This document shows, piece by piece, positions 17,387-41,625 of a stretch of DNA of 64,000 nucleotides. Location: contig JAKAXA010000009.1 of NCBI GenBank assembly GCA_021816775.1, forward strand, positions 62,001 to 126,000, in the 5' to 3' direction. The stretch is from Pseudomonadota bacterium. Lineage in GTDB: Bacteria > Pseudomonadota > Gammaproteobacteria > Steroidobacterales > Steroidobacteraceae. Under the pieces are notes generated by a model, which had not been told where the DNA came from, did not search any database, and saw only the letters and a list, made by a program, of their open reading frames with translations. How positions within the stretch are numbered: position 1 is the stretch's first letter; each line of letters opens with the position of its first letter. The position numbers were made by a program, and so were the translations under genes.

Positions 17387-17415
17387 TTTACGGCATGACT
17401 GGATGAATGTACAGT
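17387..17415 (+). promoter_or_regulatory. Candidate promoter of the radical SAM gene
   Basis: TTTACG (-35, 4/6) and TACAGT (-10, 4/6) with a 17 bp spacer. The -10 lies inside the LexA-like box. Transcription would start near 17422, which is the A of the preferred ATG, so the message may be leaderless; no Shine-Dalgarno is seen. Confidence 0.45.
17399..17414. promoter_or_regulatory. Candidate LexA (SOS) box
   Basis: CTGGATGAATGTACAG has the CTG-N10-CAG frame of the gammaproteobacterial LexA box and matches 12 of 16 positions of the ideal CTGTATATATATACAG. It overlaps the -10 element. From memory, the Pseudomonas aeruginosa homologue PA0069 belongs to the LexA regulon, which fits this placement. 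Confidence 0.65.
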
Positions 17416-17421
17416 TACGCC

Positions 17422-19542
17422 ATGACCACTCCCTCCCGAGGCGGCACGGTGAGGCGCGGGCACGGCGCGCTGTCGAATCCGGCCGGACGTTTCGAGCGGC
17501 GGATCATCGAGGCGGTGGACGACGGCTGGTTCCAGGAGGAGGTTCCGGACAGCGTGCCGCTCGAGATCATGCCGGATCACGCCCGCGCGGTGATCAGCAC
17601 CAACGATTCGCCGGACATTCCCTTCGAGCAATCGATCAATCCCTACCGCGGATGCAGCCATGCCTGTCCGTACTGCATGGCCCCTGACACGCCGATTCTG
17701 ATGGGCGACGGCAGCGTGCGCCGCCTCGAGCAGGTGGAGGTGGGCAGCGAGATCTTCGGGACGATGCGCCGCGGCACCCTGCGCCGCTACGTCCGAACGC
17801 GGGTGCTCGCCCACTGGAGCCTCATCAAGCCCGCGTACCGCATTCGCCTCGGGGACGGAACGGAACTGGTTGCGGGCGGCGATCACCGTTTCCTCACGGA
17901 GCGCGGCTGGAGGTTCGTGACCGGCGCATGGGGATCAGGTCCTGTGCAGAGGCCCGGCCTGACGGTTGAGGACACGTTGATGGGGACGGGGCACTTCGCC
18001 CGTGGGGTGGCGAAGGACTCCGAATACAAGCGCGGCTATCTGCGTGGCATCGTCCGCGGCGAGGATCATCCGGGCGCGCGCGCCCGCAGAGGCGAAGCCG
18101 GCAGCTGGAATGCCGATGATCAATTCCAACTGGCCCGCTGCGGCGAGGACGCGCTGGGCCGCGCGCACGGCTATCTGAGCCAGTTCCTGGCGCTGGCTCG
18201 CGAATTGCGCTTCGCCGCGGCCGCCGGGACGCGCAGGGCCATGTATGTCCCGGCCAGCAGGCGCGGCGCGAGCTTCGAGCACATCGGGCGCCTGGTCGCG
18301 TGGCCTGCCGCGCCGACGCGGGCCTGGTGCGCAGGGTTCCTCGCCGGTCTCTACGATGCCGACGGGTCCTGCACCCGTTCCGTGCTGCGCATCTGCAACA
18401 GCGACCCCCGGATCATCGACTGGGCCGGGCGGTGCCTCGGCGCACTGGGCTTGCGCTTCGTCCTCGAGGAGTCGCCGGCGGGTCGCGGGCCGCTCCACGC
18501 CGTGCGCCTGGCGGGGGGGCTGCGCGAGCGCCTGAGATTTCTCCACACCGTCGATCCGGCGTTCCACCGCGAGCTCGGCATCGAGGAGGAGACCTTCAGC
18601 TGCGATGCGCGCCTGCGGGTCGCGTCGATCGAGCCCGCCGGGGCGATGCGGCTCTACGACATGACCACGGGCACCGGGGATTTCATCGCCGACGGCGTCG
18701 TCAGTCACAATTGCTACGCCCGGCCGAGTCACGCCTACATGGGCCTCTCGCCGGGGGTGGATTTCGAGACCCGCCTCTTCTACAAGCAGGCGGCGGGCAG
18801 ACTGCTCGAGCGCGAGCTCGCGCGTCCCGGTTACCTCTGCAAGACGATTACGCTCGGATCCAACACCGATCCGTACCAGCCCGTCGAGCGACGTCTGCGC
18901 GTCACGCGCGACATTCTCGAGGTGCTCGCACGCTGCCGACACCCGGTCACCATCATCACCAAGAGCGCGCTCGTGCTGCGCGATCTGGATCTGCTCGGCG
19001 CGCTGGCGCGCGATAACCTGGTGCGGGTGGGTGTCAGCATCACCACGCTCGATCCCGAGCTCAAGCGAACCATGGAGCCGCAGGCCGCATCGCCCGCGGC
19101 CCGGCTGCGTGTGGTGCGCGAACTGACTGCAGCGGGTGTTCCCACCGGGGTGCTGGTGGCGCCGGTCATCCCGGCGCTGACCGATCACGAGATGGAGCGC
19201 ATCGTGCAGGCGGCCGCCGAGGCGGGCGCCCGCTGGGCGGGCTACGTCCTGCTGCGCCTGCCGTACGAGGTGGGCTCGCTGTTTCGCGAATGGCTGCAGG
19301 CGCATTATCCGGATCGCGCGCCGCGCGTGCTGTCGCTGATCCGACAGATGCGCGGGGGGCGAGACAACGACCCGCGCTTCAGTCACCGCATGCGCGGCAC
19401 GGGCCCTCTGGCGGAGCTGCTGCGCGCCCGATTCCACGCGGCCTGTCGCCGCTCGGGACTGAGCACGGCGCGCGGCGAGCCGCTCGATGTCAGTCTCTTC
19501 CGCCCCCCGCGTGTCGAGCAGCAGCTGACCCTGGGTTTTTAG
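17422..19542 (+). CDS. PA0069/Rv2578c-family radical SAM protein (SplB-like), interrupted by an intein
   Basis: Precursor of 706 residues from the ATG at 17422 (MTTPSRGG). After removal of the 346-residue intein the host protein would be 360 residues, the normal size of this family. The radical SAM cluster motif is Cys78, Cys82 and, after splicing, the +1 Cys431, giving RGCSHACPY joined to CYARPSHAYMGLSP. Downstream blocks TLGSNTDPYQPVERR, ITKSALVLRDLDLL, SITTLDPELKRTMEP and GYVLLRLPYEV fit the SplB-like group. The reaction is unknown; the LexA-like box suggests a DNA-damage-related role. An in-frame ATG at 17407 exists but lies within that box, so I prefer 17422. It converges on hutC. Confidence 0.93.
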   Translation: MTTPSRGGTVRRGHGALSNPAGRFERRIIEAVDDGWFQEEVPDSVPLEIMPDHARAVISTNDSPDIPFEQSINPYRGCSHACPYCMAPDTPILMGDGSVRRLEQVEVGSEIFGTMRRGTLRRYVRTRVLAHWSLIKPAYRIRLGDGTELVAGGDHRFLTERGWRFVTGAWGSGPVQRPGLTVEDTLMGTGHFARGVAKDSEYKRGYLRGIVRGEDHPGARARRGEAGSWNADDQFQLARCGEDALGRAHGYLSQFLALARELRFAAAAGTRRAMYVPASRRGASFEHIGRLVAWPAAPTRAWCAGFLAGLYDADGSCTRSVLRICNSDPRIIDWAGRCLGALGLRFVLEESPAGRGPLHAVRLAGGLRERLRFLHTVDPAFHRELGIEEETFSCDARLRVASIEPAGAMRLYDMTTGTGDFIADGVVSHNCYARPSHAYMGLSPGVDFETRLFYKQAAGRLLERELARPGYLCKTITLGSNTDPYQPVERRLRVTRDILEVLARCRHPVTIITKSALVLRDLDLLGALARDNLVRVGVSITTLDPELKRTMEPQAASPAARLRVVRELTAAGVPTGVLVAPVIPALTDHEMERIVQAAAEAGARWAGYVLLRLPYEVGSLFREWLQAHYPDRAPRVLSLIRQMRGGRDNDPRFSHRMRGTGPLAELLRARFHAACRRSGLSTARGEPLDVSLFRPPRVEQQLTLGF
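17674..18711 (+). other. Intein with LAGLIDADG homing endonuclease
   Basis: Protein-splicing element of 346 residues. It begins with Cys85 of the precursor in block A (CMAPDTPILMGDGSVRRLEQ), has a block B histidine in AGGDHRFLTERGW, and ends with block F/G (RLYDMTTGTGDFIADGVVSH then Asn430), followed by the +1 Cys431. These are the residues needed for class 1 splicing. Between them is a DOD endonuclease: a clear second motif GFLAGLYDADGS and a weaker first motif RGYLRGIVRGED, whose usual acidic-glycine ending is altered. Insertion is exactly before the third cysteine of the CxxxCxxC cluster, so the unspliced protein cannot assemble a normal 4Fe-4S site in its native context. Confidence 0.93.
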
Positions 19543-19554
19543 CGGCCCGCCGCC

Positions 19555-20301
19555 TCACAGCGGCCGATAGCGGAACCGCGCCACCAGCCGATGCTGGTCG
19601 CACGGATAGATCACCCGCACGTGGGTGATGCGCAGCGCGTCACGCCACGTGTTGCGCTCGATGGTCAGGCAGGCGGTGTTGCGACGGATCGCGAGCCGGC
19701 GGGCAATCACCTCATCGGCGTTGAGGGCGCCGATCTGATGCTCGGCCTCCGTCCACGGAATGCGCTGCAGGAGCCAGCGCCCGGGAGAGATGTCGCTGAA
19801 GCGCTCGCTGCGCGCCTCCGGCACGGCCTGCAGATTGATCAGCCGCTCCTCGAGAGCATGGGGCCGCCCTCCGGCGCGGTGCAGACCGGTGAGCGCGAGC
19901 ACCGGCGTCCCCGACGGTACCCCGAGGGTCGTGGCGTCAGCTGGACTCGCGCGGCGTGTGCGGCGCTCGAGCGAGTGATAGGCGTAGCTCACCCCGGCGG
20001 CGAGCAGCTCGGCCTCGATGTCGTGGATCTCCAGCACCGATTCCTGCGGGCGCGGCACGTTGACGGTGGTGCCGGCCCGGCGTCGCCGCGTGACCAGGCG
20101 CTGATCGGCGAGCGCCCCGAGGGCCTTGCCGATGGTCATTCGCGCGCAGCCGAACGACCGCGCCAGCTCGTGTTCGGACGGCAGGCGGTGTCCGGCGGGC
20201 CATTCTCCCGAGACGATCTTCTGCCGCAGCGCCTCGTAGATCTCGCGGTAGCGGGGCAGGGCGATCGGGCGGGTTGCGATCTGCGGGTCGTTGCTGCTCA
20301 T
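19555..20301 (-). CDS. hutC: Histidine utilisation repressor HutC (GntR family)
   Basis: A 248-residue transcription factor: N-terminal winged helix (YREIYEALRQKIVSGEWPAGHRLPSEHELARSFGCARMTIGKAL) and a C-terminal UTRA ligand domain starting near residue 95, where HutC binds urocanate. GRWLLQRIPWTEAEHQIGA is the HutC-specific stretch. It follows hutF with one base between TGA and ATG, so it is made from the hutF transcript and should repress its own synthesis through the palindrome at 21717-21740. Confidence 0.93.
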   Translation of the reverse strand: MSSNDPQIATRPIALPRYREIYEALRQKIVSGEWPAGHRLPSEHELARSFGCARMTIGKALGALADQRLVTRRRRAGTTVNVPRPQESVLEIHDIEAELLAAGVSYAYHSLERRTRRASPADATTLGVPSGTPVLALTGLHRAGGRPHALEERLINLQAVPEARSERFSDISPGRWLLQRIPWTEAEHQIGALNADEVIARRLAIRRNTACLTIERNTWRDALRITHVRVIYPCDQHRLVARFRYRPL

Positions 20302-20302
20302 G

Positions 20303-21673
20303 TCAGGCGGTCTGCGACAGGCTCTTCAGCGTGCGGCGATACGTGGCATCGATGCGATCACGGTCCTTGTGGCGTCCGTTCTCGACAACCGTGCGGCCGC
20401 CGGCAATCACATCGCGGATGAGTGACCGGCCGACGGCGAACAGCCAAGTGTCGATGGTGACGTCCGGACCGCGTCCGGCGAGATCCGGGTGCTGTGCGTC
20501 GAGGCCCAGAAAATCCGCGCGGTAACCCGTCGCGATCGCACCCACCGGCAGCGCGAGCGCCTGCGCGCCGCCACGCAGCGCCTCCTCGAGCAGACTCGCG
20601 CCGGTCGAGGGCTGATCGGGCCGGGCCAGCACGTTGCGCTGGCGCCGGATGAGCCGCTGCGCGTACTCCAGCTGGCGCAGCTCGCCGGCCGCATCGAGCC
20701 GAATGTGCGAATCGGTCCCGATGCCCCAGCGGCCCCCCGCCTCGCGATAGGCGGGCGCCGGGAAAATGCCATCGCCCAGGTTGGCCTCGGTCACCGGGCA
20801 CAGGCCTGCGACCGCGCCGCTGTGCGCCAGGCCCGCAGTCTCCTGCGGCGTCAGATGAGTCGCATGGACCACGCACCAGCGCGCATTCACCTCGGCGTGC
20901 TTCAACAGCCACTCGACCGGGCGCATGCCGGTGAATGCCAGGCAGTCCTCGACCTCCTTCACCTGCTCGGCGGCATGAATGTGCACCGGACCCTGAGGAT
21001 GACGCGTCAGGAGCGCCGTGAGGTGCGGGGCGGTGACCGCGCGCAGCGAGTGCGGCGCGATGCCGGTGTTGCGTCCGCAGGACGGGCGGACCTCGGCGCG
21101 CACCCGCTCCACGATGCGCTCGAACGTCTCCAGATCGGTGATGAAACGGCGTTGTCCGGCCGTGGGCGGCGCGCCCCCGAAGCGGCTCGATTCATAGAAG
21201 ACGGGCAGGAGCGTCAGCCCGATGCCGGTGGCATCGGCCGCGGCCGCGTGACGCAGCGCGAGCTCCGCCGGGTCCTGGTACAGATCGCCCTGCGGGCTGA
21301 GGTGCAGGTAGTGGAACTCCCCGACGCAGGTGAACCCGGCCTCGAGCAGGTCAGCGTAGGCGTACGCGGCGATCGCCTCGAGATCGTCGGGCTCGATCCG
21401 GCCGAGAAAGCGGTACATCACCTCGCGCCACGACCAGAAATCATCCGAGCCGCTCGGTCCGCGCCGCTCGGCGAGCCCGGCCATGGCGCGTTGAAACGCA
21501 TGGCTGTGCACGTTCGGCAGGCCGGGCACCACCAGCGCGAGGCGGGTGTCGCCGGGCGCCGCTGCGGCGCCGCACGCGATTTCCCGGATCACCCCGTCGA
21601 GCACCGCAACGCGCACGTTGCGCCGCCATCCGGCCGGCAGCCATGCGGTCTCGAAGAAGAATGTGCCGTTCAT
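20303..21673 (-). CDS. hutF: Formimidoylglutamate deiminase
   Basis: Amidohydrolase-family metalloenzyme converting N-formimidoyl-L-glutamate to N-formyl-L-glutamate and ammonia. Metal-binding motifs are VHSHAFQRAM, VHIHAAEQVKEVEDC, VVHATHLTPQE and GIGTDSHIRLD. The ATG at 21673 (MNGTFFFETAWLPAGW) gives 456 residues, typical of HutF. Together with hutG this defines the two-step deiminase/deformylase branch used by Pseudomonas rather than a direct formimidoylglutamase. Transcribed divergently from hutI. Confidence 0.94.
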   Translation of the reverse strand: MNGTFFFETAWLPAGWRRNVRVAVLDGVIREIACGAAAAPGDTRLALVVPGLPNVHSHAFQRAMAGLAERRGPSGSDDFWSWREVMYRFLGRIEPDDLEAIAAYAYADLLEAGFTCVGEFHYLHLSPQGDLYQDPAELALRHAAAADATGIGLTLLPVFYESSRFGGAPPTAGQRRFITDLETFERIVERVRAEVRPSCGRNTGIAPHSLRAVTAPHLTALLTRHPQGPVHIHAAEQVKEVEDCLAFTGMRPVEWLLKHAEVNARWCVVHATHLTPQETAGLAHSGAVAGLCPVTEANLGDGIFPAPAYREAGGRWGIGTDSHIRLDAAGELRQLEYAQRLIRRQRNVLARPDQPSTGASLLEEALRGGAQALALPVGAIATGYRADFLGLDAQHPDLAGRGPDVTIDTWLFAVGRSLIRDVIAGGRTVVENGRHKDRDRIDATYRRTLKSLSQTA

Positions 21674-21716
21674 GCTTCGCTCGGTCCGGCCGCGCCGCGG
21701 GGGTTCCGCGATATGT

Positions 21717-21740
21717 CTAGGCATATTATAATTTGCCTAG
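21717..21740. promoter_or_regulatory. hut operator: 24-bp palindrome with overlapping divergent -10 boxes
   Basis: Arms CTAGGCA and TGCCTAG flank an AT-rich core; over 24 bp only one symmetric pair fails to match. The core carries TATAAT on the plus strand (21727-21732) and TATAAT on the minus strand (21725-21730), so a bound repressor would block hutI and hutF together. HutC is the obvious candidate ligand. No good -35 is seen on either side. Confidence 0.75.
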
Positions 21741-21762
21741 TCAAAAAAGAAGGCCCTGGGAA

Positions 21763-22965
21763 GTGCAATTCGATCGTCTGTGGCGCGGCGCGACCCTGGC
21801 GACACTCTCGCCGAGACGTGCCGGCGTCGGCCTCATCGAGCATGGCGCAATCGGCGTTAGCGACGGGCGGATCACCTTCGCGGGACCGATGTCCGAGCTG
21901 CCGTCGGGCGCCCGCGCCGGCGAGGAAATCGATCTCGGCGGACGGCTGGTCACTCCCGGGTTGATCGACTGCCATACCCACATCGTCTTCGGCGGGGAGC
22001 GCAGCGCGGAATTCGAGATGCGTCTCGCCGGGGCCGACTATCAGAGCATCGCCCGCGCCGGCGGCGGCATCCTCTCCACGGTGCGCGCCACGCGCGCGGC
22101 CACGGACGAGACGCTCATCGCCGCGGCGGCGGACCGGCTGCGCAGCTTGATGGCCGAGGGTGTCACCACGGTGGAGATCAAGTCCGGCTACGGTCTCGAC
22201 GTGCCCCACGAGCTGCGCATGCTGCGCGTGGCACGCGAGCTCGGCCGGCGACTGCCGTTGGGTGTGACGACCACATTGCTGGCCGCGCACGCCGTGCCGC
22301 CCGAGAGCGACCGCGCCGAGTACCTGCGGCGCATCCGCGACGAGTTGATTCCGCGCGCTGCCGCCGAGGGACTCGCTGATGCCGTCGATGGCTTCTGCGA
22401 AGGCATTGCCTTCAGCGCGGCGGAACTGCGAGCAGTATTCGCGGCGGCGCGCGGGCACGGCCTGCCCGTCAAGCTGCATGCCGATCAGCTCTCCGACAGC
22501 GGCGGCGCGGCGCTCGCCGCCGAATTTCAGGCACTCTCCGCCGATCACCTGGAGTGGACCGGCGAGGCCGGCGTCGCCGCCCTGGCGCGCTCCGGCACCG
22601 TGGCGGTGCTGCTGCCGGGCGCCTTTTACTGTCTGCGCGAGCGGCGCGTGCCGCCGGTGGCGGCGCTGCGCAAGCATGGCGTACGCATGGCGCTCGCCAC
22701 GGACTGCAACCCGGGCACCTCGCCGCTGCTGTCGATTCTCACTGCCCAGAACCTCGGCGCGGTCCAGTTCGGCCTGACCATCGAGGAGACCCTCGCCGCC
22801 GTGACTCGCGAGGCGGCGGCCGCGCTCGGAATGCAGGATGAGATCGGCACGCTCGAGCCCGGCAAGCGCGCTGACCTGGCCATCTGGAACGCCGTGCGCC
22901 CGGCCGAGCTCGTGTACTGGATCGGCCGCAATCCCTTGTATCAGCGCATCTGGAGGGGCCATTGA
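21763..22965 (+). CDS. hutI: Imidazolonepropionase
   Basis: Third enzyme of histidine breakdown, hydrolysing 4-imidazolone-5-propanoate to formimidoylglutamate. Amidohydrolase motifs: [15 protein letters not shown] (metal HxH), [30 protein letters not shown] and [12 protein letters not shown] choose the GTG at 21763, preceded by AGAAGG nine bases upstream and giving the usual N-terminus ([15 protein letters not shown], read with Met) and 400 residues; a TTG at 21733 lies inside the operator and is unlikely. First gene of hutIHGU; its TGA overlaps the hutH start (TTGA). Confidence 0.95.
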
Positions 22966-24503
22966 AACCCTGCGTCATCAAACCGGGCCGGGTCGTGCTG
23001 GCCGAATGGGCGGCCGTCTACCGCGGCGCGCCCGTGTCGCTCGATGAGGCCTGTTACGAACGCATCGCCCGCGGCGCAGAGTCGGTGACGCGCATCGTGG
23101 CGCGCGGCGAGCCGGTGTACGGCATCAACACCGGCTTCGGCAAGCTCGCGAGCGTGCGGATCGAGGCGGCCGATCTGACCCGCCTGCAACGCAATATCGT
23201 GCTGTCGCACTGCGCCGGAGTCGGGGAGCCCATGCCCGCGCCGGTGACGCGGCTGATGCTGGCGCTGAAGATCGCCAACATCGCACAGGGCGCCTCGGGC
23301 GTGCGTGCCGAGACGGTCCGGCGGTTGTGTCAGCTGCTCGAGCGGGATCTGCTGCCGGTGGTGCCCGCACAGGGGTCCGTCGGCGCCTCCGGCGATCTGG
23401 CGCCGCTTGCGCATCTGGCGGGCGCGCTGATCGGGGTCGGTGAGATCCGCCTGCCGGACGGGGCGCGGCTGGCGGCCGATGAGGCGCTGCGCCGCGCCGG
23501 ACTCAAGCCGCTGACGCTCGCGCCCAAGGAGGGCCTCGCGCTACTGAACGGCACGCAGTTCTCCACCGCGAACGCGCTTGCGGCGCTGTTCGACATCGAG
23601 ACGGTGTTCCAGTCCGCTCTGGTGACCGGCGCGCTCGCCACCGAGGCGGCCAAGGGCTCCGACACGCCCTTCGATGCGCGCATTCACGCGCTGCGCGGCC
23701 ATCGCGGCCAGATCGAGACCGCCGCGGCGCTGCGCTCGCTCATGGCCGGTTCGGCCATCCGCGACTCGCACCGGGTGGCCGACCCGCGCGTGCAGGATCC
23801 CTACTGCCTGCGCTGCCAGCCGCAGGTGATGGGCGCGGCGCTCGACCTGCTGCGCCACGCGGCGGCCACCCTGGCGTGCGAGGCGAACGGCGTATCCGAC
23901 AACCCGCTCATCTTCCCCGACACCGACGAGGCGCTCTCGGGCGGCAATTTCCACGCTGAGCCGGTCGCCTTCGCCGCCGACGTGATGGCGCTCGCGCTGT
24001 GCGAGATCGGCTCACTCGCGGAGCGGCGCATCGCCATGCTGGTCGATCCGGCCCTCTCCGGGCTGCCGGCCTTTCTCACGCCGAGCCCGGGGCTGAACTC
24101 CGGGCTGATGATGCCGCAGGTGACCGCCGCGGCGCTGGTCGCGGAGAACAAGCAGTGCGCGCATCCGGCCAGCGTCGACTCCATCCCCACCTCGGCCAAC
24201 CAGGAGGATCACGTGTCGATGGCTGCGCATGCGGCGCGCCGGCTGCATCAGATGATCCGCAACGCCGCCGCGGTCATCGGCATCGAGCTCATCACCGCGG
24301 CGCAGGGCTGCGACTTTCATCGCGGGCTGCGCTCGAGCGCGCCGCTCGAGGCCGTGCGCCGCGCGGCGCGCGCGCGCATCGCGCCACTCGTGCAAGACCG
24401 CTACCTGCATGCCGACCTCGAGGCCGCCGGCGCGCTGGTGCGTGAGCGCGCGCTCCTCGAAGCCGTCGACGGCGTGCCATTGCCGTCGCTGGAGCCGGTA
24501 TGA
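22962..24503 (+). CDS. hutH: Histidine ammonia-lyase
   Basis: First step of histidine use: histidine to urocanate and ammonia. The 513-residue protein has the Ala142-Ser143-Gly144 triplet in [16 protein letters not shown] that cyclises to the MIO cofactor, with [11 protein letters not shown] near residue 53 and [15 protein letters not shown] near residue 410. The start is a TTG overlapping the hutI stop, backed by GGAGGGG just upstream. Overlaps hutG by ATGA at its 3' end. Confidence 0.96.
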
Positions 24504-25327
24504 GCGCGTGGCTCGAGATACGGCGCGGCGAGGCGCCGCTCGTGGTGAGCTTCCCGCACACCGGGACGGATCTGCCTTCTGAGCTTACCCCGCGCCTGCT
24601 CGGCGCCTGGCTCGCCCGCAAGGACGCGGACTGGTACGTCGATCGTCTCTATGCGGTGGCGCTCGCGCTCGGCGCGACCACGGTGCGCACCACGATCAGC
24701 CGCACGGTGATCGACGTCAACCGCGATCCTTCGGGCGCATCGCTCTATCCGGGGCAGGCAACCACGGAGCTGTGCCCGACGAGCACCTTCGACGGCGAGC
24801 CGCTCTACCGCGCCGCAGAGGCGCCGGGCGAGAAGGAGATCGCCGAGCGGCGCACCCGTTATTTCGAGCCGTATCACGCGGCGCTCGGCGCCGAGCTCGA
24901 GCGGCTGCGGGCGCGCCACGGACGAGTCGTGCTGTACGATGCGCATTCGATCCGCTCGCGCGTGCCGCGCCTGTTTGCCGGCGAGTTGCCCCATCTGAAT
25001 CTCGGCACCAATCACGGCGCGAGCTGCGATCCGGCGCTGACGCGCGCGATCGAGCGCGCGTGCGAGGATCCGCGTTTCAGCCGCGTTACCGACGGCCGAT
25101 TCGTCGGCGGCTGGACCACGCGTCACTACGGCCGGCCGGAGCGCGAGGTGCACGCGGTGCAGATGGAGCTGGCCTGCCGCGGCTATCTCGACGAGCCGGG
25201 CTCCCCGGACCCCGCGAACTGGCCGCCGCCGTTCGAGCCGCACCGCGCCGCGCCGCTCGGCGCGGTGCTGCAGCGCGTGCTCGCCGCCTGTCTGAACTTC
25301 GCCCAAGTTGCACCAGGAGTCCCCTGA
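24500..25327 (+). CDS. hutG: N-formylglutamate deformylase
   Basis: Last step of the HutF branch, yielding glutamate and formate. A 275-residue FGase-family amidohydrolase: [38 protein letters not shown] and [16 protein letters not shown] are the conserved blocks, and [11 protein letters not shown] is typical of this enzyme. It is a formylglutamate hydrolase, not the arginase-like formimidoylglutamase that shares the hutG symbol in other bacteria. Start overlaps hutH (ATGA); stop and hutU start share one base (TGATG). Confidence 0.93.
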
Positions 25328-27024
25328 TGAGCGCAGATCGCAAGACCCGGACCCGCGTGGACGCCTCGCGAGTCATCCACGCCCCGACCGGCACGCAACG
25401 CACCGCCAAGAGCTGGCTCACCGAGGCGCCGCTGCGCATGCTGATGAACAACCTCGATCCGGCCGTGGGCGAGCGGCCGGCCGAGCTCGTCGTGTACGGC
25501 GGCATCGGCCGCGCCGCGCGCGACTGGGAGAGCTACGACATCATCGTCGCGACGCTGCGCCGGCTCGAAGCGAGCCAGACGCTGCTCATCCAGTCGGGCA
25601 AGCCGGTCGGCGTGTTCACTACGCACGAGGACGCCCCGCGCGTGCTGATCGCCAACTCCAACCTGGTGCCGCGCTGGGCGACCTGGGAGCATTTCAACGA
25701 GCTCGACCGCAAGGGACTGATGATGTTCGGTCAGATGACCGCGGGCTCGTGGATCTACATCGGCAGCCAGGGCATCGTGCAGGGCACCTACGAGACGTTC
25801 GTCGAGATGGGCCGCCGGCACTATGGCGGCGATCTCGCCGGGCGGTGGCTGCTCACCGCCGGGCTCGGCGGCATGGGCGGAGCGCAGCCGCTCGCGGCCG
25901 TCATGGCCGGCGCCTCGTGCCTGGCGGTGGAGTGTCAGCGCTCGCGAATCGAGATGCGGCTGCGCTCCGGTTATCTCGACCACGCCGCGCAGAGCCTCGA
26001 TGAGGCGCTCGAGATCGTGCGGCGCGCCTGCGCCGAGAAGCGCGCCGTGTCGGTCGGGCTGCTCGGCAACGCCGCCGAAGTGCTGCCGGAGATGGTGAGG
26101 CGGGACGTGCGGCCCGATCTGCTCACCGACCAAACCTCGGCCCACGATCCGCTGAACGGCTACCTGCCCATCGGCTGGAGCGTCGAGCGCTGGGCGGAGA
26201 TGCGCGAGCGCGATCCGGGGGAAGTGATGCGCGCGGCCAAGGCCTCGATGGCAGTGCACGTGCGCGCCATGCTGGACTTTCACGCCGCCGGCGTGCCGAC
26301 CGTCGATTACGGCAACAACATCCGGCAGATGGCCCTCGAGGAGGGCGTGAAGAACGCGTTCGATTTTCCGGGCTTCGTTCCGGCGTACATCCGGCCGCTG
26401 TTCTGCCGCGGCAAGGGACCGTTCCGCTGGGCGGCGCTGTCCGGCGATCCCGAGGACATCTACAGGACCGATGCGAAGGTCAAGGAGCTGCTGCCCGAGG
26501 ATCGTCACCTGCATCACTGGCTCGACATGGCGCGCGAGCGCATCCACTTCCAGGGACTGCCGGCGCGCATCTGTTGGGTGGGTCTCGGCGACCGGCACCG
26601 CCTGGGCCTGGCGTTCAACGAGATGGTCGCGCGCGGGGAGCTGAAGGCACCGGTGGTGATCGGTCGCGATCACCTCGACTCCGGCTCCGTCGCCTCGCCG
26701 AACCGCGAGACCGAATCGATGCGCGACGGCTCGGACGCGGTGTCGGATTGGCCGCTGCTGAATGCGCTGCTCAACACCGCCTCCGGCGCCACCTGGGTGT
26801 CGCTGCATCACGGCGGCGGTGTTGGTATGGGCTTCTCCCAACACGCCGGCCTCGTCATCGTGTGCGACGGCACCGAGGCGGCCGCGCGGCGCATCGCACG
26901 GGTGCTGTGGAACGATCCGGCGAGCGGCGTGATGCGCCATGCGGATGCCGGCTATCCCGAGGCCATCGCCTGCGCGCGGGAGAAGGGGCTCGATCTGCCC
27001 GGTATTCTGGGCGCAGCGGACTGA
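25327..27024 (+). CDS. hutU: Urocanate hydratase
   Basis: NAD-dependent enzyme converting urocanate to imidazolone propionate. The 565-residue protein contains [15 protein letters not shown], the NAD-binding [19 protein letters not shown]-like [14 protein letters not shown] with the conserved catalytic region, and [11 protein letters not shown]. The start is the ATG at 25327, which fits the TGATG junction with hutG; the long open frame upstream overlaps hutG and is not used. Last gene of the operon. No histidine transporter is present at this locus. Confidence 0.96.

Positions 27025-39483: not shown

Positions 39484-41625
<2,142 letters not shown>

Follow-up and report, generated by a model that had tools for sequence, protein, structure and literature searches.

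The locus described here raises the question of what an intein does at the iron-sulfur cluster site of a radical SAM enzyme, whether it is a mobile element settled in conserved codons or a device that regulates the enzyme. The locus lies in a stretch of 64,000 nucleotides from a gammaproteobacterium of the family Steroidobacteraceae (assembly GCA_021816775.1, contig JAKAXA010000009.1, positions 62,001 to 126,000), hereafter the window. A forward-strand gene of the PA0069 family is interrupted there directly before the third cysteine of its CX3CX2C motif. The interpretation, held with considerable confidence, is that a mobile class-1-like intein occupies the CX3CX2C codons of a LexA-controlled, SplB-like (PA0069/Rv2578c) radical SAM gene, with splicing kept and the endonuclease drifting. 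It is built on the computed sequence anatomy, the identity of the insertion site, the patchy distribution, a conserved operator-like box and domain-specific constraint.

An intein before the third cluster cysteine

The frame at 17407–19542 (+ strand, as are all features below) encodes 711 residues. Its first ATG (17407) falls within the LexA-like box described below, and an ATG at 17422, seven bases past the box, is common to relatives. Translation likely starts at the latter, which would yield a precursor of 706 residues. The intein and the residue that follows it are Cys85–Asn430 and Cys431 when counted from ATG 17422, and Cys90–Asn435 and Cys436 when counted from ATG 17407; the second numbering is used here. 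The translation matches the NCBIfam PA0069 family (NF033668) in two stretches with 482.3 bits, above the cut-off of 360, and the PA0069-type host proposed in an initial annotation of this DNA is thereby upheld. We take this family to be SplB-like (COG1533). The intein-containing NCBIfam model of Rv2578c (NF038136) matches residues 58–643 with 471.1 bits and spans the intein. The N-extein (17422–17673), delimited by the family matches and the common ATG, holds the first two cluster cysteines (17653–17655 and 17665–17667). For the C-extein (18712–19539), no relative of solved structure was found at E 0.1.

The intein extends from Cys1 to Asn346 (17674–18711, residues 90–435 of 711). It begins with Cys-Met-Ala-Pro-Asp-Thr-Pro and ends with Ser-His-Asn, followed by Cys-Tyr-Ala-Arg of the C-extein. 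The insertion point lies between Tyr/Phe and the third cysteine of CX3CX2C, Cys436, the first residue of the C-extein, which has a double role as splicing +1 residue and cluster ligand. Homologues without the intein lack the 346 residues and read C-x3-C-x-Y-C-Y-A-R straight through; three of them are full-length and belong to the same genus (L046, L047, and L048). The open frame, the junctions, and these empty sites confirm, at the level of the sequence, a 346-residue intein interrupting a PA0069-family radical SAM gene. Its limits, its position, and the doubly used cysteine are those first proposed.

The N-terminal splicing (Hint) half (17674–17994, its limit set by us at residue 107) contains Cys1 and His71 of block B, and the C-terminal half (18604–18711) contains Asp329 of block F, His345, and Asn346. 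In the alignment of 82 inteins, which are also the rows of the intein tree (80 relatives selected as described below, the window intein and that of L041), Cys1, His71, and Asp329 are present in all 82, and His345 and Asn346 in all 81 that reach the end. The cysteine as first residue, the His-Asn end, the +1 cysteine, and the aspartate of block F are those of class 1. Two results weigh against a standard intein of this class. The Thr of the TxxH motif of block B is missing in all 82 inteins, being replaced by Ser (54), Gly (27), or Ala (1), and the intein is therefore called class-1-like. The general NCBIfam models for intein N- and C-termini and Pfam Intein_splicing remained below their cut-offs, so that the intein is proved by the alignment of the family and by the sites without it. 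A profile of 55 inteins matches the gp41-1 and DnaB inteins near block B, and the C-terminal end of the DnaX mini-intein.

Between the two halves lies a LAGLIDADG endonuclease domain (18016–18603, residues 115–310, limits set by us). The same profile matches I-DmoI (E 1.7e-07, profile positions 120–293), and the match to Pfam LAGLIDADG_3 is barely above cut-off. Unlike I-DmoI, which is a stand-alone enzyme, the window endonuclease resides inside an intein and has one catalytic motif altered. The first LAGLIDADG motif (LRGIVRGEDH, 18040–18069) has Glu-Asp in place of Asp-Gly; Asp is found in 78 of the 82 inteins, and Glu in the window intein only. The second (LAGLYDADG, 18340–18366) is intact, with Asp at a position that is acidic in 77 of the 82. 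The nearest relative (L042/L075) has Gly at the acid position of both motifs.

Constraint differs between these domains. In the three pairs among the window, L075, and L076, the ratio of non-synonymous to synonymous substitution rates (dN/dS) is 0.61–1.01 for the endonuclease part, 0.13–0.32 for the Hint halves, and 0.11–0.20 for the C-extein. Elsewhere, the endonuclease ratios are 0.09, 0.19, and 0.27 (three actinobacterial pairs) and 0.14 (the betaproteobacterial pair L081–L086, for which the N-exteins, compared unaligned, and the 44-codon C-extein are disregarded). The most economical interpretation is that the window clade is losing homing and retains splicing. This reading is tempered by the N-extein, with a dN/dS of 0.49–0.66 over 84 codons in the same pairs, by the nature of all these ratios, which come from few pairs with shared branches and carry no statistical test, and by the intact second motif, with which homing may still be alive.

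A patchy allele at one conserved site

In the order sample and among the phylum-wide matches listed, PA0069 members, unlike that of the window, mostly have no intein. In an order-wide sample, a PA0069 match was obtained in 75 of 147 genomes, 66 of them above cut-off, some fragmentary matches (e.g. G079) being left unassigned. The intein carriers of this sample are the window genome, G110, G122, G085, and G114, in which the ends of two contigs each hold part of the gene. The two pieces in G114 (the end of L042 and the start of L043) overlap and are not identical, as from an assembly split, perhaps between strain variants. A search across the phylum placed 171 of 398 genomes above the PA0069 cut-off; among the matches listed, the profile was matched in one piece, that is, without intein. 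A class-wide search with the intein gave matches in 30 of 369 genomes, strong only in the window genome and G185 (1.5e-72); the others, at 3.6e-8 or weaker, are apparently other inteins. The G185 copy (L156, G185:C20), from another gammaproteobacterial family, has its intein at the same site, but the reading frame of this intein ends prematurely within the endonuclease region.

Across 84,980 species genomes scanned, 458 relatives of the intein were found, and the best 80 were kept for analysis. In all 80, the N-junction follows C-x3-C-x-(Y/F) and the first residue is Cys, and the C-junction is HN followed by C(Y/F)AR in all 79 that reach it. The kept relatives come from Actinobacteria (the recorded Rv2578c intein), Gamma- and Betaproteobacteria, and other phyla. 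A unique proteobacterial oddity is ruled out by the 458 relatives, the best 80 of which all occupy one site. The rarity among proteobacteria that had first been supposed does not hold for the kept relatives, 25 of the 80 being from Pseudomonadota, and stands for the class sample, with the window genome and G185 out of 369.

Two kinds of host are separated on the extein tree. One is an actinobacterial branch, which includes an Armatimonadota row and an ANGP1 row. The other, the PA0069-extein side, comprises Gamma- and Betaproteobacteria and, beside these, Rubrobacter-like Actinobacteria, Omnitrophota, a planctomycete, a gemmatimonadete, and a myxococcote. With the Rv2578c-family intein the window shares the site, the splice junctions, the blocks, a similar length, and a match of 471 bits along extein and intein; it differs by a score below the model cut-off of 700, by its PA0069-type host extein, and by the altered endonuclease motif. 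Four carriers of the actinobacterial branch were scored with this model: L108 (901) and L121 (706) passed, and L095 (567) and L117 (545) were below cut-off. The six PA0069-side carriers tested scored 440–493, all below 700; five of these six passed the PA0069 cut-off and L093 was narrowly below it (354).

The extein tree was built with 77 intein-bearing and 40 intein-less rows. L081, L083, L092, L125, and L138 were dropped because they have no C-extein. Among the intein loci, L039 and L109, L040 and L096, and L042 and L075 are duplicates. L044 (G142:C91), an intein-less homologue from the same genus as the window, has a frame that shifts right after the cluster motif, as in a pseudogene or an assembly error; it was excluded from the tree and from the ranking of DNA conservation (40 rows).

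On these trees, which are quick, have a single support measure, and include bins that can hold foreign contigs, the presence of the intein needs at least 10 state changes along the exteins, and starred branches make 6 of these unavoidable. The window, L075, L076, and L144 have the intein; their neighbours L046 and L048 are without it. The inteins of L140, L141, and L041 cluster (SH-aLRT, the Shimodaira–Hasegawa-like approximate likelihood ratio test, 100) on the side of the actinobacterial and other inteins, whereas their exteins are found inside Gammaproteobacteria, where L141 adjoins the intein-less L010. Among the 40 intein-less homologues, DNA conservation at the insertion site ranked 7th of 321, 9th of 313, and 8th of 305 segments of 18, 24, and 30 bases, respectively, and the top-ranked segments lie within about 40 bases of the insertion point. 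The intein-free members of the same genus, the conflict between the trees, and the conserved target argue for a mobile allele.

Phages and plasmids were considered as vectors and rejected. The whole protein gave three partial tblastn matches in phage records, all to the extein part, and the intein gave one match in plasmids, with 24.6% identity. The C-extein alone matched 43 plasmid records, very large replicons predominating among the ten listed.

A LexA-like box before the host gene

The LexA-like box CTGGATGAATGTACAG (17399–17414) is of the form CTG-N10-CAG and overlaps a -10-like hexamer TACAGT (17410–17415), an arrangement pointed out in the initial annotation and found again here, with an SOS-type box conserved in relatives. 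A -35-like hexamer TTTACG (17387–17392) precedes TACAGT by 17 bases. The mRNA may be leaderless, since the start codon lies only 6 bases past the -10-like hexamer. TTTACG-17-TACAGT has 8 of 12 matches to the promoter consensus, and a generic promoter scan at a cut-off of 9/12 found no promoter there. The closest relatives keep TTTAC, the 17 bases, TACAGT, and the box in place, the first C being lost in L144 and L046, and CTGT...ACAG forms occur at the same place in homologues.

The case for the box is made by this conservation and not by its own match, CTG-N10-CAG being at chance level in the window (12 found, 21.8 expected). In intein carriers, the search covered the region between 420 and 150 bases upstream of the insertion point. 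CTG[TG]-N8-[AC]CAG was found in 13 of 16 gammaproteobacterial carriers, against 1–2 of 16 for four control patterns; this set, which excludes the window, was assembled by record title or, for titles that name Proteobacteria only, by judged kinship. The same pattern was found in none of 43 actinobacterial carriers (3 of the 46 loci were left out because their upstream region is too short). GAAC-N4-GTTC, which we take to be the actinobacterial type of LexA box, was found in 25 of these 43, against none for three controls, and was absent from four other regions. The looser CTG-N10-CAG occurred in 3 of the 43 and, in other regions of the gammaproteobacterial loci, in 1–3 of 16. Intein-less homologues were picked from the order sample on the basis of score and manual selection; of 45 loci, 41 were left after removal of the duplicates L013, L015, and L020 and of L045 (G079, a short match). 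CTG-N10-CAG precedes 22 of the 41 (one box, in L035, is out of place), against 1–2 for four controls, and the stricter pattern 19. As near-identical relatives were counted singly, the box counts are not independent events.

Two unlike LexA-type operators, as read from the DNA, precede the same gene in two phyla. Since intein-free PA0069 members carry the box too, the predicted SOS control is a property of the host gene and does not stem from the intein. SplB/COG1533 genes are described as SOS-regulated in several groups in three papers (PMC8565304, PMC3323433, PMC3765255).

It is improbable that the box is a chance match and that the gene escapes SOS control in this organism. The chance-level frequency of the pattern in the window, the degenerate fourth base, the lost first C in the related L144 and L046, and the lack of a genome-wide excess of the motif speak for such a coincidence; the position, spacing, and half-sites conserved in relatives, the enrichment over controls in three sets, and a box of similar quality before lexA itself speak against it. 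LexA control is nevertheless burdened by several results. The window box has G at position 4 and 4 mismatches to the LexA consensus, and CTGT-N8-ACAG is not enriched in the genome (14 sites, against 15 for the reversed control). Upstream of recA, no site was found at 10/16 matches plus 5/6 core bases. The pattern of the gammaproteobacterial carriers was found in only 3 of 9 betaproteobacterial carriers and in none of 8 from other phyla. According to PMC3323433, SOS regulation of splB was seen in the alpha- and betaproteobacterial networks studied there and not in the gammaproteobacterial ones, the splB meant there being possibly outside the PA0069 family.

A genome scan with the LexA consensus, allowing up to 3 mismatches, returned one other site (L067). 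The box of lexA (L059, G000:C38 near 986) is TTGTATAAGCACACAG, with one core mismatch, eight bases before the likely start. The frames after lexA resemble imuA and imuB by eye. In the window, the genes past the radical SAM gene (19555–27000) resemble, by eye only, a histidine-use cluster, and a second radical SAM domain (about 40606–41220; G000:C68:102606-103220) lies inside a 761-residue open frame.

Homing target or redox-gated switch

In the precursor, the intein Cys1 completes CX3CX2C in the order Cys(-3)-Pro-Tyr-Cys1, and both cysteines are present in all 80 kept relatives. The spacing of the pair is that of the redox trap in the intein of P. abyssi MoaA. MoaA is also a radical SAM enzyme; its host there is archaeal, and the two inteins are likened by their cysteine spacing. 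A disulfide between Cys(-3) and Cys1 blocks splicing in engineered redox traps and in the native MoaA one, according to two papers (PMC3922620, PMC10663303). By this analogy, redox-gated splicing of the window intein is plausible. Cys(-3) is no independent sign of regulation, because it is dictated by the radical SAM motif.

Among 45 loci returned by a viral scan, L185 and L186, which are alike in the parts compared, hold a full-length relative with 33% identity at C-x3-C-x-Y followed by Cys (gene at 2881–4923 in L185). The viral host protein is putatively radical-SAM-like, by three weak matches: to Radical_SAM of Pfam (E 0.13), to the PA0069 model along 25 residues (E 7e-07), and to PHROG 13321 (E 1.6e-09), which the window protein matches at 1.7e-41. 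Of the other 43 loci, those with a readable insertion context have it outside CX3CX2C motifs. On the viral contigs, a frame upstream of the intein gene resembles a DNA cytosine methyltransferase by eye.

That homing into highly conserved codons explains the site wholly, with no regulatory effect, is somewhat favored. The patchy distribution, the conflict between the trees, the endonuclease domain, and the conserved target all suit a purely selfish element. Against this, the reading leaves room for the intein to affect splicing, and at least one other type of protein has such a motif in use. It is possible, but rather doubtful, that the intein persists because it regulates an SOS enzyme sensitive to oxygen, with splicing delayed by a Cys(-3)-Cys1 disulfide, or by a cluster bound to Cys1, until the cell is reduced. 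Such a switch would accord with the pair found in all 80 kept relatives, with the native disulfide that can control MoaA splicing, with the distant intein that a viral protein carries at this motif, and with splicing halves constrained beside a drifting endonuclease. Against it, the cluster needs the -3 cysteine with or without an intein, constraint on splicing is expected of any intein in a needed gene, and the gene is free of the intein in close relatives. Regulation and a favorite homing target cannot be told apart from sequence, because the cluster demands the -3 cysteine in either case.

For the preferred reading, a mobile intein in a LexA-controlled gene, the following course is proposed, in which splicing, LexA binding, homing, and enzyme activity are inferred. 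A class-1-like intein with an I-DmoI-like LAGLIDADG endonuclease would settle at the conserved CX3CX2C codons. DNA damage would relieve LexA repression and the 706-residue precursor would be made. The intein would excise by means of Cys1, Asn346, and Cys+1, joining the exteins into a 360-residue enzyme, and a cluster would then be loaded on Cys83, Cys87, and Cys436, which is the most likely order of events. The spliced enzyme would probably serve DNA repair. In this lineage the endonuclease would drift, and a continuing need for the host gene would maintain splicing. Two keys, SOS induction and then splicing, would follow if LexA and splicing act as proposed.

A bolder extension appears unlikely: radical SAM CX3CX2C motifs would have become the special target of one intein lineage, in viruses as well as across phyla, with Cys1 replacing the third ligand, and a cluster or disulfide in the precursor would block splicing. 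The SOS repair enzyme would then be freed only in a cell able to maintain the cluster of the enzyme, LexA (with two operators in two phyla) being the first key and splicing the second. Each of three elements is already known by itself: the intein allele, SOS control in enzymes of this class, and the redox trap. In the open-licence literature, no paper joining the three and none on this intein was found, the passages available of PMC8151990 do not mention Rv2578c, and those of PMC7765530 yielded nothing.

The intein is more general than the initial annotation had supposed. In proteins named PA0069, inteins can go unflagged by the NCBIfam intein model: the window protein and all six PA0069-side carriers tested score below its cut-off. 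The locus would unite a predicted SOS-controlled radical SAM enzyme, a splice junction at the cluster site, and a Cys(-3)/Cys1 pair of the redox-trap kind, which are usually studied apart. With intein-bearing and intein-free copies in one genus, it offers a natural control for conditional splicing of an iron-sulfur enzyme.

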